From NCBI RefSeq assembly GCF_000746845.1, contig NZ_KN050846.1, positions 1,442,963-1,506,962 of the forward strand: a stretch of 64,000 bases of DNA, written 5' to 3'. The translations under genes were made by a program, and so were the position numbers. The notes beneath the pieces were generated by a model. The model saw only the letters and a list, made by a program, of their open reading frames with translations. It did not search any database and was not told the DNA's origin. The stretch is from Altibacter lentus. Its GTDB lineage: Bacteria > Bacteroidota > Bacteroidia > Flavobacteriales > Flavobacteriaceae. Shown one piece after another: positions 38,033 to 42,632 of the stretch. Positions within the stretch are counted from its first letter, which is position 1, and every line of letters begins with the position of its first letter.

Positions 38033-39316
38033 ATGCGAATAGAATCTCTTTACAAAACTTTTTTAAATAGTTCGGGTGTTTGTACAGACACACGTGTCAT
38101 CACTAAAAAATGCTTGTTCTTTGCGCTTAAAGGCGATAGTTTCAATGGAAACGAGTTTGCTCAAGAAGCTTTGGACAAAGGTGCTTACAAGGTAGTTGTC
38201 GATGACATGCGCTATCACAAGAACACAGGCGAGACCATTCTGCACGGAGATGCACTTGCTCTTTTACAAAAACTTGCTGCTTACCACCGTAAGAAACTAG
38301 GACTTCCTGTAATTGCACTTACCGGGAGCAATGGTAAGACAACTACCAAAGAACTCATCAATGCTGTCTTATCCCAAAAGTTCAATACCGTGGCTACCAA
38401 AGGCAACCTTAACAATCATATTGGTGTACCGCTCACCTTACTTACCATGAATGCATCTACGGAAATTGGTATCGTTGAGATGGGGGCAAACCACAGGAAA
38501 GAGATAGCCGCACTCTGCGAGATCGCACAGCCGGATTTCGGGTATATCACAAATTTTGGAAAGGCTCACTTAGAAGGTTTTGGTGGTATCGAAGGAGTAA
38601 TTAAAGGTAAATCTGAACTCTATCAATACCTCAATGCCCACAAAAAGACGGTCTTTGTGAACGCACAGGATGAAAAACAACTTGAACTCACAAGAAAAAT
38701 GCGCCGTGTCACCTTTGGCGAATCCGAACAGGACATGACTATTAAATTAAAGGAAGCATCCAATAAACTGGTGGTAGCGTATAATAAACTGAAGATCCAA
38801 ACCAATCTTATCGGTTCCTATAATTTTCATAATATCGCCGCAGCCATAAGTATGGGGGAACACTTTGGTGTTTCTTCAGAAAAAATAAAACAGGCAATAG
38901 AAGCGTATATTCCTACAAATAACAGATCACAACTCATCGCAAAAGGAACCAATACTATTATTATGGATGCCTATAATGCGAACCCTACGAGTATGTTAGC
39001 GGCTCTTGAAAACATGAAACAGGCTAAAGGCGCCAATAAAGTGATGTATTTGGGTGATATGTTTGAATTAGGTGATGACGCCCCAACCGAACATCAGTTT
39101 ATCGCTTCTTATCTGGAACGACATGCATTTGGAGAGGCATACCTCATTGGCAGTAATTTTGCTAAAACAAAGACCACTGCATCGTCTATACATCGTTTTG
39201 AAACGTTCGATGCGTTTAAAAAAGCATTCCCGTCAATAAAACCAAAGGACAGCCTCATTCTTATTAAAGCTTCAAGAGGGATGGCCTTAGAGCGAATTCT
39301 GGAACTATTACAGTAG
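38033..39316 (+). CDS. murF: UDP-N-acetylmuramoyl-tripeptide--D-alanyl-D-alanine ligase
   Basis: A 427-residue Mur ligase that adds D-Ala-D-Ala in cytoplasmic peptidoglycan synthesis. TDTRVITKKCLFFALKGDSF starts the N-terminal UDP-binding domain; the ATP loop is ALTGSNGKTTTKELI (about residues 93-107). EMGANHRKEIAALCEIAQPD and MDAYNANPTSMLAALENM are MurF signatures. It is close to the gldJ terminator (15 bp) and therefore starts close to a hairpin. A bidirectional terminator follows at 39339. Confidence 0.95.
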   Translation: MRIESLYKTFLNSSGVCTDTRVITKKCLFFALKGDSFNGNEFAQEALDKGAYKVVVDDMRYHKNTGETILHGDALALLQKLAAYHRKKLGLPVIALTGSNGKTTTKELINAVLSQKFNTVATKGNLNNHIGVPLTLLTMNASTEIGIVEMGANHRKEIAALCEIAQPDFGYITNFGKAHLEGFGGIEGVIKGKSELYQYLNAHKKTVFVNAQDEKQLELTRKMRRVTFGESEQDMTIKLKEASNKLVVAYNKLKIQTNLIGSYNFHNIAAAISMGEHFGVSSEKIKQAIEAYIPTNNRSQLIAKGTNTIIMDAYNANPTSMLAALENMKQAKGANKVMYLGDMFELGDDAPTEHQFIASYLERHAFGEAYLIGSNFAKTKTTASSIHRFETFDAFKKAFPSIKPKDSLILIKASRGMALERILELLQ

Positions 39317-39369: not shown

Positions 39370-39371
39370 GT

Positions 39372-39445
39372 GGGCCATATTGGATTCGAACCAATGACTT
39401 CCACGTTGTCGACGTGACACTCTGAACCAACTGAGTTAATGGCCC
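39372..39445 (-). tRNA. tRNA-Val (anticodon GAC), with an unusual C33
   Basis: A 74-nt cloverleaf on the minus strand. Acceptor GGGCCAT pairs with ATGGCCC, D stem ACTC/GAGT, anticodon stem TCACG/CGTGG (first pair T-G), T stem ATTGG/CCAAT with the usual TTCGAAT loop. The 7-base anticodon loop is TCGACAA, so the anticodon GAC reads Val codons GUC/GUU, and position 33 is C instead of the near-universal T. The CCA end is not encoded. It has its own promoter (39458-39465) and terminator. Confidence 0.9.
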
Positions 39446-39540: not shown

Positions 39541-40084
39541 ACGACTGCAAATACAATCACAAGTGCTACGCACTATAGATTTTTATTTTCTCAATTCTCT
39601 CGAACTTTCAGTTCGGGAATCTTAGGGATTACCCTGTGATCCCTACAATGAAACCACGACTGCAAATACAATCCCAAGTGCTTCGCACTATAGATTTTTA
39701 TTTTCTCAATTCCATCGAACTTTCAGTTCGGGAATCTTAGGGATTACCCTGTGATCCCTACAATGAAACCACGACTGCAAATACAATCACAAGTGCTTCG
39801 CATTATAGATTTTTATTTTCTCAATTCCCTCGAACTTTCAGTTCGGGAATCTTAGGGATTACGCTGTGATCCCTAAAATGAAACCACGACTGCAAATACA
39901 ATCCCAAGTGCTTCGCACTATAGATTTTTATTTTCTCAATTCCCTCGAACTTTCAGTTCGGGAATTTTAGGGATTACGCTGTGATCCCTACAATGAAACC
40001 ACGACTGCAAATACAACCCCAAGTGCTGCGCACTATAGATTTTTATTTTCTCAATTCCCTCGAACTTTCAGTTCGGGAATTTTG
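39541..40084. repeat. tandem array of a 115-bp unit, four full copies and a partial fifth
   Basis: Copies start at 39541, 39656, 39771, 39886 and 40001, each exactly 115 bp apart; the last stops after about 84 bp. Copies differ by only a few bases. On the plus strand each unit can form hairpin 1 AGTGC/GCACT with a 3-base loop (about unit positions 22-34), hairpin 2 ATTCC..CGAAC/GTTCGGGAAT (about 55-80), and hairpin 3 TAGGGAT/ATCCCTA (about 83-105). No ORF runs through it with coding character, and no spacers separate the units. It fills the 685-bp gap between two tRNA-Val genes. I recognise no function; it could be a structured RNA, a DNA-binding array or a passive duplication. Confidence 0.9.
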
Positions 40085-40087
40085 AAA

Positions 40088-40120
40088 ACAAAAATCCCGA
40101 TGAGTTTCTCATCGGGATTG
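40088..40120 (-). terminator. terminator of tRNA-Val(TAC)
   Basis: On the minus strand AATCCCGATGAG pairs with CTCATCGGGATT around a 3-base loop and runs into TTTTTG. It lies 11 bp after the tRNA and separates it from the repeat array. Confidence 0.85.
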
Positions 40121-40130
40121 TGCTTGATGT

Positions 40131-40204
40131 GGGCAATGAGGGATTCGAACCCCCGACCCCCTCGGTGTAAACGAGGTGCTCTGAACCAACTGAGCTAATT
40201 GCCC
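40131..40204 (-). tRNA. tRNA-Val (anticodon TAC)
   Basis: A 74-nt cloverleaf on the minus strand. Acceptor GGGCAAT pairs with ATTGCCC, D stem GCTC/GAGC, anticodon stem CCTCG/CGAGG, loop TTTACAC (anticodon TAC, normal T33), T stem GGGGG/CCCTC with loop TTCGAAT. It reads GUA/GUG valine codons. The CCA end is not encoded. A full -33/-7 promoter precedes it and a terminator follows. Confidence 0.95.
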
Positions 40205-40382: not shown

Positions 40383-42632
40383 ATGCACTTCACGAAGAAA
40401 CTTAAAAAGCCATTAGGCTATCTAATTAAAGGTATAGGAATCCTTATGCTTTTAGTTAGTCTGTTTGTGGCTACAGTCTATTTTGGAGGGTGGGGCCCTA
40501 TTCCGTCATCTAAAGAATTACAGGAGTTATCACAATATAAAGCTTCAGAAATATACGATGTCAACGATGAATTGTTGGGTAAATTCTATCTGGCAGATCG
40601 TCAACCCATCGCTTTCGACCAAATTCCGCAGCATACTGTCGATGCTTTGATCGCAACCGAGGATGTGCGTTACTACGAACATTCCGGAGTGGATCTAAAA
40701 AGTTTCTTAAGGGTCTTTTTCAAAACCATTTTATTGCAAGATGCCAGCAGTGGAGGCGGCAGTACCCTCACCCAGCAACTTTCGAAAAATCTCTTCAGCA
40801 GAAAGGACTACGGGTTTTTAACACTCCCGGTGGTGAAGACCAAAGAGATCATTATCGCCCGGCGTTTGGAGCGATTATACAATAAGGAAGAAATTTTGGA
40901 GCTGTATTTCAACACTGTACCGTTTAGCGGTAATACCTATGGTATTGAGAGTGCCGCATTAAAATTCTTCAACAAACACACAAAGGAGCTTTCTGTTTCT
41001 GAAGCAGCCACGCTTATAGGAACCTTAAAGGCGAGTTCTACCTACGATCCTCGAAATCATCCCGAACGAAGTCGCTCCAGAAGAAATACAGTGCTCTTTC
41101 AAATGAAAAAATACGGATTTTTGAGTGACCTATCCTACCAAAAATTCGTTTCAGACTCCCTAAAGCTTAACTACGGTGCTTACGATGAGGAACGGGGTAT
41201 TGCCACCTATTTTAGAGAAGAAGTGCGGAATCATCTGCTGAAATGGACCGAAGAGCAGTCAAAGTACGGCACAAAACTCAATTTGTATACAAGCGGGTTA
41301 AAAATTTACACCACACTTGATAAGACCTTGCAACTGTATGCCGAAGAAGCCGTGACAACGCACATGACGCAACTTCAGAAAAGTTTTGAAAAAGAATACG
41401 GAAATACGGCTCCGTGGTTAACGAATAAAAAGATCATCACCGATGCCATCCAAAGATCTTATCATTACAAGCGACTGAAACACCAAGGGTACACAGAGAA
41501 TGCTATTAGCGATTCTTTGGAGAAACCAAGGAAAATGTGGTGGCGCGGCATTCCCAAAGATTCAACTGTCATGGCCAGTACCGTCGACAGCATTAAACAC
41601 AGCTTAAAGTTTTTGAATACCGGCATGTTATCGCTGGATCCTGTTTCAGGAGCGATTCGAACATGGGTGGGCGGTGTCGATTTTGAACAATATAAGTTTG
41701 ATCATATCAGCAAAAGCAAACGACAAGTAGGGTCTACCTTTAAACCTATAGTATATGTAACAGCGCTGGAACAAGGTGTATCGCCCTGCGATTATTTTTC
41801 GGCACAGGAAGTAGTATATGAAAATATGGAGGGCTGGTCTCCGTCTAATTCGGGTAATGTGGACGAAAAATATATGAATTACAACATGACAGCCGCCTTA
41901 AGTAAATCGATCAATACAGTCTCAGTAAAGATCTTGGAAAAAGCCGGTATTCAAAATACGATCAACATGGCCTCTGCCTTAGGTATTAAAACCAGCTTGC
42001 CCGAAGTGCCTTCGTTAGCGTTAGGAACTGCTGAAATATCATTGCTCGAAATGGCAAGTGCCTACACCGCTTTTGCCCATAAAGGCATTGCTGCGACCCC
42101 GTACTACTTACGGAAAATTGAGGACAGCCAAGGCACGGTTCTTGCCCAATTCGCGCCGGAAGAAACCGCGACTCCTGTTTTTTCGGAAACCAATCAACAA
42201 CTCATGATCTCCATGATGCAAGCCGTAGCTACGTCCGGAACAGCACAGCGCTTAAAAAGCACCTATGGCTTACCTAATGATATCGCCGCCAAGACTGGTA
42301 CGACACAATCGAACAAAGACGCATGGTTTGTTGCACTTACTCCTAACCTGGTGGCTCTTACTTGGGTGGGTCATGATGATCACCGCATTGGGTTTAAAAC
42401 CACTGCTACGGGACAAGGAGCAAATGCAGCCTTACCCATTGTAGCAGAATTTTTTCAGAAAATAAATAAAGACTCCTCTTTTAACTCAATCTCAAAAGCC
42501 CGTTTTGACACTCCTTCTCCTTCTGTTCGTCAATTATTGGATTGCCCGCCGACCAAACGGGATGGATTCTTAAAACGGCTGTTCACTAATCCGGATAAAA
42601 AGAAGAAAAAGCGGTTCAAGACCAAAAACTAG
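40383..42632 (+). CDS. penicillin-binding protein 1A family transglycosylase/transpeptidase
   Basis: A 749-residue bifunctional class A PBP that polymerises and crosslinks peptidoglycan outside the inner membrane. One N-terminal membrane segment (residues 16-38). GT51 glycosyltransferase domain: catalytic Glu93 in IATEDVRYYEHSGVD, then GGGSTLTQQLSKNLFS. Transpeptidase domain: Ser451 in VGSTFKPI (SxxK), SIN in LSKSINTVSV, and KTGTTQSNKDAWF. The C-terminus ends in a Lys-rich tail. It has its own 5' region and ends on the base before folC ends on the opposite strand. Confidence 0.95.
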   Translation: MHFTKKLKKPLGYLIKGIGILMLLVSLFVATVYFGGWGPIPSSKELQELSQYKASEIYDVNDELLGKFYLADRQPIAFDQIPQHTVDALIATEDVRYYEHSGVDLKSFLRVFFKTILLQDASSGGGSTLTQQLSKNLFSRKDYGFLTLPVVKTKEIIIARRLERLYNKEEILELYFNTVPFSGNTYGIESAALKFFNKHTKELSVSEAATLIGTLKASSTYDPRNHPERSRSRRNTVLFQMKKYGFLSDLSYQKFVSDSLKLNYGAYDEERGIATYFREEVRNHLLKWTEEQSKYGTKLNLYTSGLKIYTTLDKTLQLYAEEAVTTHMTQLQKSFEKEYGNTAPWLTNKKIITDAIQRSYHYKRLKHQGYTENAISDSLEKPRKMWWRGIPKDSTVMASTVDSIKHSLKFLNTGMLSLDPVSGAIRTWVGGVDFEQYKFDHISKSKRQVGSTFKPIVYVTALEQGVSPCDYFSAQEVVYENMEGWSPSNSGNVDEKYMNYNMTAALSKSINTVSVKILEKAGIQNTINMASALGIKTSLPEVPSLALGTAEISLLEMASAYTAFAHKGIAATPYYLRKIEDSQGTVLAQFAPEETATPVFSETNQQLMISMMQAVATSGTAQRLKSTYGLPNDIAAKTGTTQSNKDAWFVALTPNLVALTWVGHDDHRIGFKTTATGQGANAALPIVAEFFQKINKDSSFNSISKARFDTPSPSVRQLLDCPPTKRDGFLKRLFTNPDKKKKKRFKTKN

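Follow-up and report, generated by a model that had tools for sequence, protein, structure and literature searches.

In Altibacter lentus, a composite element begins at the 3' end of the tRNA-Val(tac) gene, and a tandem array of a 115-bp unit makes up its distal part. The unit of this element measures about 170 bp and lies directly after the RNA gene. Elements with the same plan occur behind tRNA-Val, tRNA-Ala(ggc), tRNA-Arg(acg), tRNA-Arg(tct), tRNA-Met and tmRNA genes in many genera of Flavobacteriaceae, on the strand of the gene. From its sequence features, we tentatively read the structure as a long-resident, gene-less, non-coding element that would have been inserted at tRNA and tmRNA 3' ends and that, here, was amplified in tandem in its distal part.

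Results

The 115-bp array is joined to a tRNA-Val gene

In the window, by which we mean the whole 64,000-nucleotide stretch analysed, TRF lists two arrays. One of them is the 115-bp array at 39541-40080 on the minus strand (4.7 copies, 96% matches, without indels, score 996). Its TTTGCA core stands on the minus strand at 39551, 39666, 39781, 39896 and 40011, a step of exactly 115, which bears out the period and the copy starts (39541, 39656, 39771, 39886 and 40001) given by an earlier sequence-only reading. The three inverted repeats per unit that it described are also present in the sequence (AGTGC..GCACT, AATTCCC..CGAACT..AGTTCG..GGGAATT and TAGGGAT..ATCCCTA), and the folds of two single units, computed for both strands, exceed those of dinucleotide shuffles in stability (z -3.1 to -4.3). 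No ORF of at least 80 aa overlaps the array, in agreement with the claimed lack of a coding frame. Near the array, only tRNA models of Rfam reach their gathering score and the other matches (E up to 10) fall far below theirs, which fits the earlier failure to name a repeat family.

By sequence, the 115-nt unit occupies one locus in the genome under study (G000; 3.16 Mb, 13 contigs), the other matches being nine fragments of 14-28 bp with E of at least 0.3. The genome-wide copies that would mark a known interspersed element are thus absent as far as sequence goes. In a looser sense they exist: the same plan, in different sequence, is found at five RNA genes of this genome, namely tRNA-Val(tac), tRNA-Pro(ggg), where it forms an array of about 100 bp x 5, tRNA-Arg(tcg), tRNA-Arg(acg) and tmRNA.

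A Pfam run on the neighbours identifies a Mur ligase (murF-like; 38033-39316) and a penicillin-binding protein (40383-42632). The flanking tRNA-Val(gac) gene (39370-39445, minus strand) has no intact element behind it; in two other genomes of the genus, G101 and G302, the element is present at tRNA-Val(gac). At tRNA-Val(tac), the array has 4.7, 2 and 1 copies in three genomes of the genus. The sequence-only reading had set the array apart from the tRNA genes, but it is joined to the 3' side of tRNA-Val(tac): the trailer of this tRNA supplies one strand of the closing helix, and the T-stem is mirrored in hairpin C. Overlooked in that reading was the larger structure of which the unit is a part, and which includes the trailer and terminator of tRNA-Val(tac) (40084-40128).

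Anatomy of the element

Along the direction of the RNA gene, the element runs from the gene's 3' end through the trailer ATCAAGCA, the terminator hairpin h1, a T-tract, hairpin B, an A-tract, hairpin h2 and the core TTTGCAGnAGnGG to hairpin C. In the window, these parts lie on the minus strand. The host gene, tRNA-Val(tac), whose T-stem is mirrored by the element, occupies 40129-40204. It is followed by the trailer ATCAAGCACAATCCC (40114-40128), which is the left end of the element and the 5' strand of the closing helix P0, and by the intrinsic-terminator-like hairpin h1 of tRNA-Val(tac) (40093-40119), the outer part of which is ceded to P0 and P2 in the predicted closed fold. The T-tract TTTTTGTTTTC (40084-40094) pairs with the A-tract GAGAAAATAAAAATC (40038-40052) in helix P2; the B hairpin of the first unit lies at 40053-40083. 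Next come hairpin h2 (TATAGTGCGCAGCACTTGGGG, 40017-40037), the segment GGGGTTGTATTTGCA (40006-40020) with the 3' strand of P0, called P0', and the TTTGCA core, the conserved core TTTGCAGTCGTGGTTTCATTG (39991-40011) and hairpin C (TAGGGATCACAGCGTAATCCCTA, 39968-39990), a mirror of the T-stem of tRNA-Val(tac) (AATCCCT). The repeated part of the array is the stretch from B to C (B, A-tract, h2, core and C), while the trailer (left strand of P0), h1 and the T-tract occur once. Of the tRNA 3' end, the window unit keeps only AATCCCT; full 3' ends occur in other genomes.

Across elements, the trailer is mostly ATCAAGCA or CACTCA, the core TATTTGCAGnAGnGG and the C hairpin GGATCA..TAATCC, and in some elements the gene's 3' end appears again after the C hairpin (AATCC...CCAC). 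A small hairpin of type CCGCCTnnnGGGCAGG or CCGCCTnnnGGCCGACAGG, inserted immediately before TTTGCA, forms a second repeat within the element at two loci (L083 and L098).

The window element contains one terminator-like site on the minus strand, h1, and four on the plus strand. The latter span 39562-40034, and all but one of the five h2 hairpins have one (stems at 39562, 39677, 39907 and 40022); on the plus strand, the A-tract is the T-rich tail of such a site. A sigma-70 scan, which does not extend to Bacteroidota promoters, found no promoter. Bacteroidota promoters carry the motif TAnnTTTG, and by eye we compared it with TATTTGC in the core; the second base does not fit and there is no TTG at the expected place. 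The core of CTnDOT, GTAnnTTTGC, was likewise set aside for its spacing. A tRNA primer-binding site of a retroelement was dropped as an idea since complementarity at the CCA end is inexact. In two copies (39623-39645 and 39738-39760, minus strand), the C hairpin reads TAGGGATCACAGGGTAATCCCTA, which is one base off the 18-bp I-SceI site; we take this to be a coincidence.

Distribution across genes and genomes

A DNA search of 299 family genomes returned two further tandem arrays, with periods of about 121 and 103 bp (G283 and G090), both immediately behind a tRNA-Val pair. Profile R1, built from nine units, matched 87 of 397 family genomes and 70 of 237 genera at E up to 0.01, some of these matches being due to chance. 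Among 70 loci fetched from the R1 search, 55 lie downstream of a tRNA or tmRNA gene on their own strand (25 of 30 in one batch, three of the 25 coming from R1 training genomes, and 30 of 40 in another). The remaining 15 comprise three at contig ends (L025, L040 and L042), one preceded by a T-arm and 3' end that resemble those of a tRNA but were not called by ARAGORN (L049), five orphans that begin with a tRNA 3' end (L095, L107, L119, L128 and L029, the last being the same place as L128) and six that were rejected as chance matches (L094, L113, L118, L124, L125 and L129). L017 in G067 was rejected likewise; the stretches read at these rejected loci contain no tRNA remnant. Profile R2, built from 39 of the 59 elements described below with short or expanded C hairpins excluded, added tRNA-Arg(cct), tRNA-Ser and tRNA-Phe as host genes.

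In a scan of 196 genomes of the order, 19 gave matches. Seven matches in other families are single and weak (best E 4.6e-4); the one that was read (L156 in G551) is located behind tRNA-Arg(acg) and combines a palindrome of T-tract and A-tract with a GGATCAACGGAGTTAATCC hairpin, which suggests that the element may extend beyond Flavobacteriaceae.

Presence is patchy. When loci were fetched by gene, as the 30 best matches out of 60 genomes per gene, the element was found at 3 of 28 tmRNA and 6 of 45 tRNA-Val flanks, the window's own gene included in the latter, versus 64 of 6000 random positions; these rates are rough because of the best-match sampling and because some known elements were missed (e.g. 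L276). Most genes without the element also lack the trailer motif, with some exceptions. No autonomous long version appeared among the flanks with the left motif but no core, two of which were read at length. Four pattern scans of viral contigs returned no element, and the exact pattern of the window's C hairpin gave 0 matches in genome and viral collections, this pattern being too specific.

At least two matching genomes were found in 16 genera, a pattern closer to persistence than to recent movement; in other genera, a single genome matched among those sampled (e.g. g3, g11, g15 and g51). When units from different RNA genes within a genome are compared, they score no higher than units of different genera do (median 13 in both). 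Only 2 of 31 within-genome pairs lie above the 99th percentile, in a comparison whose automatic detector missed some elements accepted by reading, and spread within genomes was discarded as an explanation because so few pairs stand out.

Spacing and the mirrored T-stem

For closer comparison we used 59 elements. In 138 loci, a TTTGCA-like core was found at 95-150 nt from an upstream tRNA or tmRNA gene in 64 candidates; five candidates were then excluded on visual inspection (L057 Ser, L102 gac, L110 gac, L028 tac and L047 tac). Outside this set is the tRNA-Pro(ggg) array of the genome under study, which has its core at 81; the tRNA-Pro elements of G025 have a different core, TTGGCA. Conservation of the core is partly selected, since most loci were found with profile R1, which includes it; the distance, P0, P2 and the agreement with the T-stem were not selected for by this profile.

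The core lies at a median distance of 121 nt from the gene (interquartile range 119-125, range 113-146), within a search range of 95-150 nt that itself limits this distance. In all 55 elements that can be scored, the C-arm base immediately before GGA is complementary to the T-stem of the host gene (35 T, 17 G, 2 A and 1 C); four further elements lack GGA. The dinucleotide before GGA is complementary in 45 of the 55. Host genes with ATCC-AG have CT before GGA in 31 of 33 cases, and those with ATCC-CT have AG in 10 of 17. Two sites in the helices are kept in a form other than a Watson-Crick pair: a G.U where CAAG faces TTTG (43 of 59), and a C facing an A in hairpin C, conserved in 90% or more of the 39 elements of alignment A3, from which short or expanded C hairpins were excluded.

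A second copy of the gene's own 3' end (at least 13 of 17 positions) within 1200 nt of the core was found for 11 of 59 elements versus 7 of 363 control queries; such copies are also seen at tRNA-Ser and tRNA-Phe. It is absent in 48 of 59, so that the direct repeat expected of a tRNA-integrated element is seen in a minority only and, in the window, not in full. Following units that start with the gene's 3' end are complete at L119 and L122; at L107 and L207 the start of such a unit was seen.

Fold, covariation and strand

The first 123 nt of the window element are predicted to fold into a closed four-way junction that is closed by P0, the pairing of the trailer with the segment before the core. 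On the tRNA strand, this fold has -50.5 kcal/mol (z -7.48) and on the other strand, as RNA, -41.8 (z -6.50). As DNA, z is -6.46 and P0 is absent from the centroid. Over the 59 elements, mean z is -7.82 on the tRNA strand versus -7.24 on the opposite one, and 58 of 59 lie below -3. The tRNA strand has the lower MFE in 51 of 59 elements but the lower z in only 35. P0 appears in the predicted fold of 42 of 59 elements on the tRNA strand and 47 of 59 on the opposite strand; with the P0' part swapped between elements, it drops to 18 of 59.

P0, in which the tRNA trailer pairs with a segment about 90 nt away, shows strong covariation. Run unguided on the 59 elements, RNAalifold returns P0 as the consensus, with two-sided changes at all nine pairs. 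(A structure from the first alignment of 9 sequences was discarded, its hairpin stems being misaligned.) Taken together, P0, CAAG/TTTG and the T-stem/C arm helix are paired in 91.5% of cells, with 171 double-change cells versus 47.3 in shuffles and no more than 39 after a shift of one to three columns. For h1 and P2, 84.4% of cells are paired, with 150 double-change cells versus 60.8 in shuffles and no more than 97 after a shift. All of these counts come from related sequences in a MAFFT alignment. Swap tests give P0 its own score of 7.85 versus 4.78 and P2 9.59 versus 5.20, with 0 of 2000 permutations each. The element thus shows the covarying structure expected of a structured RNA, a signal that DNA palindromes also yield.

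Wobble pairs bear on the strand. On the tRNA strand, G.T exceeds A.C in P0 (22:10), h1 (22:8) and P2b (18:7), with no clear excess in P2a (9:5) or the T-stem helix (5:7); a second count gives 8:1 in h1, 7:0 in B and 2:1 in h2. GNNA loops divide into GNRA and GNYA as 17:2 in h1, 5:5 in h2 and, counting distinct loops, 9:6 in C. In the C hairpin, the kept mismatch is A.C on the tRNA strand (18 A.C to 0 G.T), which speaks against an RNA of this strand. Loops of the type cGNAg or cGNNAg are stable in DNA; they occur in 22 of 55 h2 and 13 of 58 h1 hairpins, a difference that is suggestive only. The folded strand is more likely the tRNA strand, as RNA or as single-stranded DNA.

Islands, orphans and other arrangements at tRNA genes

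In G101, which belongs to the same genus, the tmRNA gene is separated from its element by an 8.2-kb island that encodes a Phage_integrase protein (PF00589), and the element now stands behind a repeated tmRNA 3' end. The island entered at the tmRNA end, upstream of the element and not inside it. In G366, a Phage_integrase protein adjoins an array whose first part is a tRNA-Val 3' end, next to a folC-like gene. Since the 19 kb fetched revealed no tRNA, we infer an island here as well. Orphan copies had been considered as evidence of transposition, an idea discarded after the G101 island: the only orphan with a located RNA gene was displaced by that island, so orphans are not proof of mobility. 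They show islands using these 3' ends, not movement of the element itself.

Several other arrangements were seen at tRNA genes. At L132 (G025) and L133 (G359), a tRNA-Val that has an element is separated from an orphan element by 8 and 12 kb of other genes, sulfatase-like in the case of L132; by eye, no integrase was recognised among the ORFs of at least 120 aa in these intervals. Behind tRNA-Leu(caa) of the genome under study (L075, C1:1787496 region), the tRNA is followed by a GIY-YIG nuclease ORF (PF01541) and then by a 20/20 direct repeat of its own 3' end, an arrangement that resembles a small tRNA-end element with a gene. At tRNA-Gln(ttg) of the same genome (L069, C1:1686566 region), the 3' end and terminator are repeated (20/20 at +124, 18/20 at +269) with AAAATGTCCACCGGACATTTT remnants. 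Behind a tRNA-Gly(tcc) gene (L052), a tandem repeat of about 43 bp in four copies contains the tRNA 3' end CTCCCGCTC.

Discussion

Origin and possible roles of the element

We tentatively favour insertion at tRNA and tmRNA 3' ends because one plan is common to several gene types, the C arm mirrors the host T-stem, the gene's 3' end is repeated at some loci, presence is patchy and, as the G101 island indicates, these 3' ends serve as sites for islands. Like integrative elements that target tRNA genes, an ancestor may have recombined into the T-loop; the tRNA would then have stayed intact, with its former 3' end moved to the distal side. In that case the mirrored arm would represent the second core site within the attachment site, which would have to match the T-stem of each host gene. 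With its self-complementary arms, the excised unit could fold compactly into a long hairpin with its apex in C, plus h1, B and h2. The recombinase would be supplied from elsewhere, the element having no recombinase gene of its own; present copies would be old residents, and arrays such as the 115-bp one may have arisen later by unequal exchange or slippage between units. The departures from tRNA sequence (TTTGCAGnAGnGG and GGATCA..TAATCC) are common to several gene types and argue for one origin. No recombinase linked to the element was identified: the array has no ORF of at least 80 aa and the viral pattern scans found no relative. In a CIME, too, the integrase gene may be absent. Against insertion count the 48 of 59 elements without a second 3' end and the finding that units within a genome are no more alike than those of different genera. 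The strong covariation of P0, h1 and P2, not expected of a plain attachment site, also counts against it.

A more active version, in which a gene-less mobile element moves as a small folded single-stranded molecule and is placed by a host or helper recombinase, seems to us quite improbable. The excised unit would be nearly all self-paired, with a stem of core, T-stem and trailer, an apex in the C loop and h1, B and h2 as side arms. If the recombinase were to align this hairpin with the T-arm of a tRNA or tmRNA, the end of the element would have to mirror the T-stem of each target.

Two other readings were weighed. The structure could belong to the RNA: read-through transcripts of the tRNA or tmRNA gene would fold into the four-way junction and so control 3' processing, stability or termination, and on the opposite strand the h2 hairpins would terminate convergent transcription from the murF side, which would make the array a bidirectional insulator with several reverse terminators. 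The near-fixed distance on the strand of the RNA gene, the lower z of the window element and the generally lower MFE on this strand, the G.T excess in P0, h1, P2b and B, the GNRA loops of h1, and the terminator-like sites on both strands all point this way. The junction lies past the terminator, however, so that only read-through RNA could form it, and most of the sampled tRNA-Val and tmRNA flanks do without it. Neither h2 nor C shows a clear preference for GNRA, P0 is predicted more often on the opposite strand, z favours the tRNA strand in only 35 of 59 elements, the C mismatch is A.C, and the T-stem mirror and the repeated 3' end are left unexplained. Insulator part included, we consider this model possible but rather unlikely. 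The other reading, a passive relic without function or mobility, would start from template switching at the terminator hairpin, which would leave a direct-inverted-direct copy of the tRNA 3' end; repeated self-templated (quasi-palindrome) correction would keep the arms complementary, and slippage would produce arrays. It fits the order of direct 3' end, inverted copy and direct 3' end as well as the variable copy number at tRNA-Val(tac), and under such correction the compensatory changes would need no selection. Correction would, on the other hand, erase the conserved non-complementary sites (the G.U and the C opposite A), the core is common to unlinked genes, and functionless DNA should not hold a spacing of 119-125 nt over many genera. 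We regard a relic as unlikely.

Least probable, and in our view very unlikely, is that the elements are remnants of attachment sites that pile up after islands leave, or decoys that divert integrases from the tRNA. The Phage_integrase proteins beside the elements at tmRNA (G101) and beside the detached tRNA-Val array (G366) would suit such a role, and accretion and CIMEs have been described (PMC5704250). But the G101 island entered the tmRNA end upstream of the element rather than the element, and a plan common across gene types is too regular for independent scars.

Relation to known systems

The rtT repeats of E. coli tyrT, which we take to be tandem repeats of about 100-200 bp with a piece of the tRNA 3' end, resemble the array in being a tandem repeat behind a tRNA gene, although the window unit carries AATCCCT only. 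We know of no mirrored T-stem in rtT and of no closing helix with the trailer, and no curated Rfam model gave an rtT-type match, only tRNA models reaching the gathering score. REP/BIME- and MITE-type repeats are short, non-coding, intergenic palindromes that occur in groups. In contrast, our element is not scattered by sequence, lies behind RNA genes and has arms that vary with the host gene; many scattered copies of one sequence, as in REP/BIME or dispersed MITEs, were not found in the genome, where the unit has a single locus. The GIY-YIG unit behind tRNA-Leu(caa) shares with the element a flanking direct repeat of the tRNA 3' end but contains a nuclease gene, and neither core nor C hairpin was seen in the stretch read. 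In the literature searched, with most subscription papers outside the search, we found no description of the element, and to our knowledge no described family combines these features.

PMC5704250 describes tRNA-integrated IMEs that target the 3' end of a tRNA gene and leave the gene undisrupted, with a direct repeat that includes the gene end, and CIMEs that have lost their integration genes and kept attL and attR. Targeting of tRNA 3' ends, direct repeats that spare the gene and elements lacking integration genes are thus already on record. Our element differs in its length of about 170 bp, in having neither genes nor a known integrase and in being strongly palindromic. It also recalls attC sites, which are short palindromes able to stand in series and have strand-specific features in the folded strand, integron integrases acting on the folded bottom strand of attC, as described in PMC3053210. 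The element is instead tied to tRNA and tmRNA genes, and neither cassette ORFs nor a linked integron integrase (intI) was seen, the neighbours being the murF-like Mur ligase and the penicillin-binding protein.

Implications

The element may break assemblies: contigs end at three of the fetched arrays (L025, L040 and L042). If our interpretation is correct, the 3' ends of tRNA and tmRNA genes in a large bacterial family harbour a class of short folded elements that is undescribed in the literature searched, at the same spots that mobile islands use. Such elements would offer tests of termination, processing and invasion at tRNA 3' ends, and the mirrored T-stem would be a natural experiment in the co-evolution of an element with its host gene.
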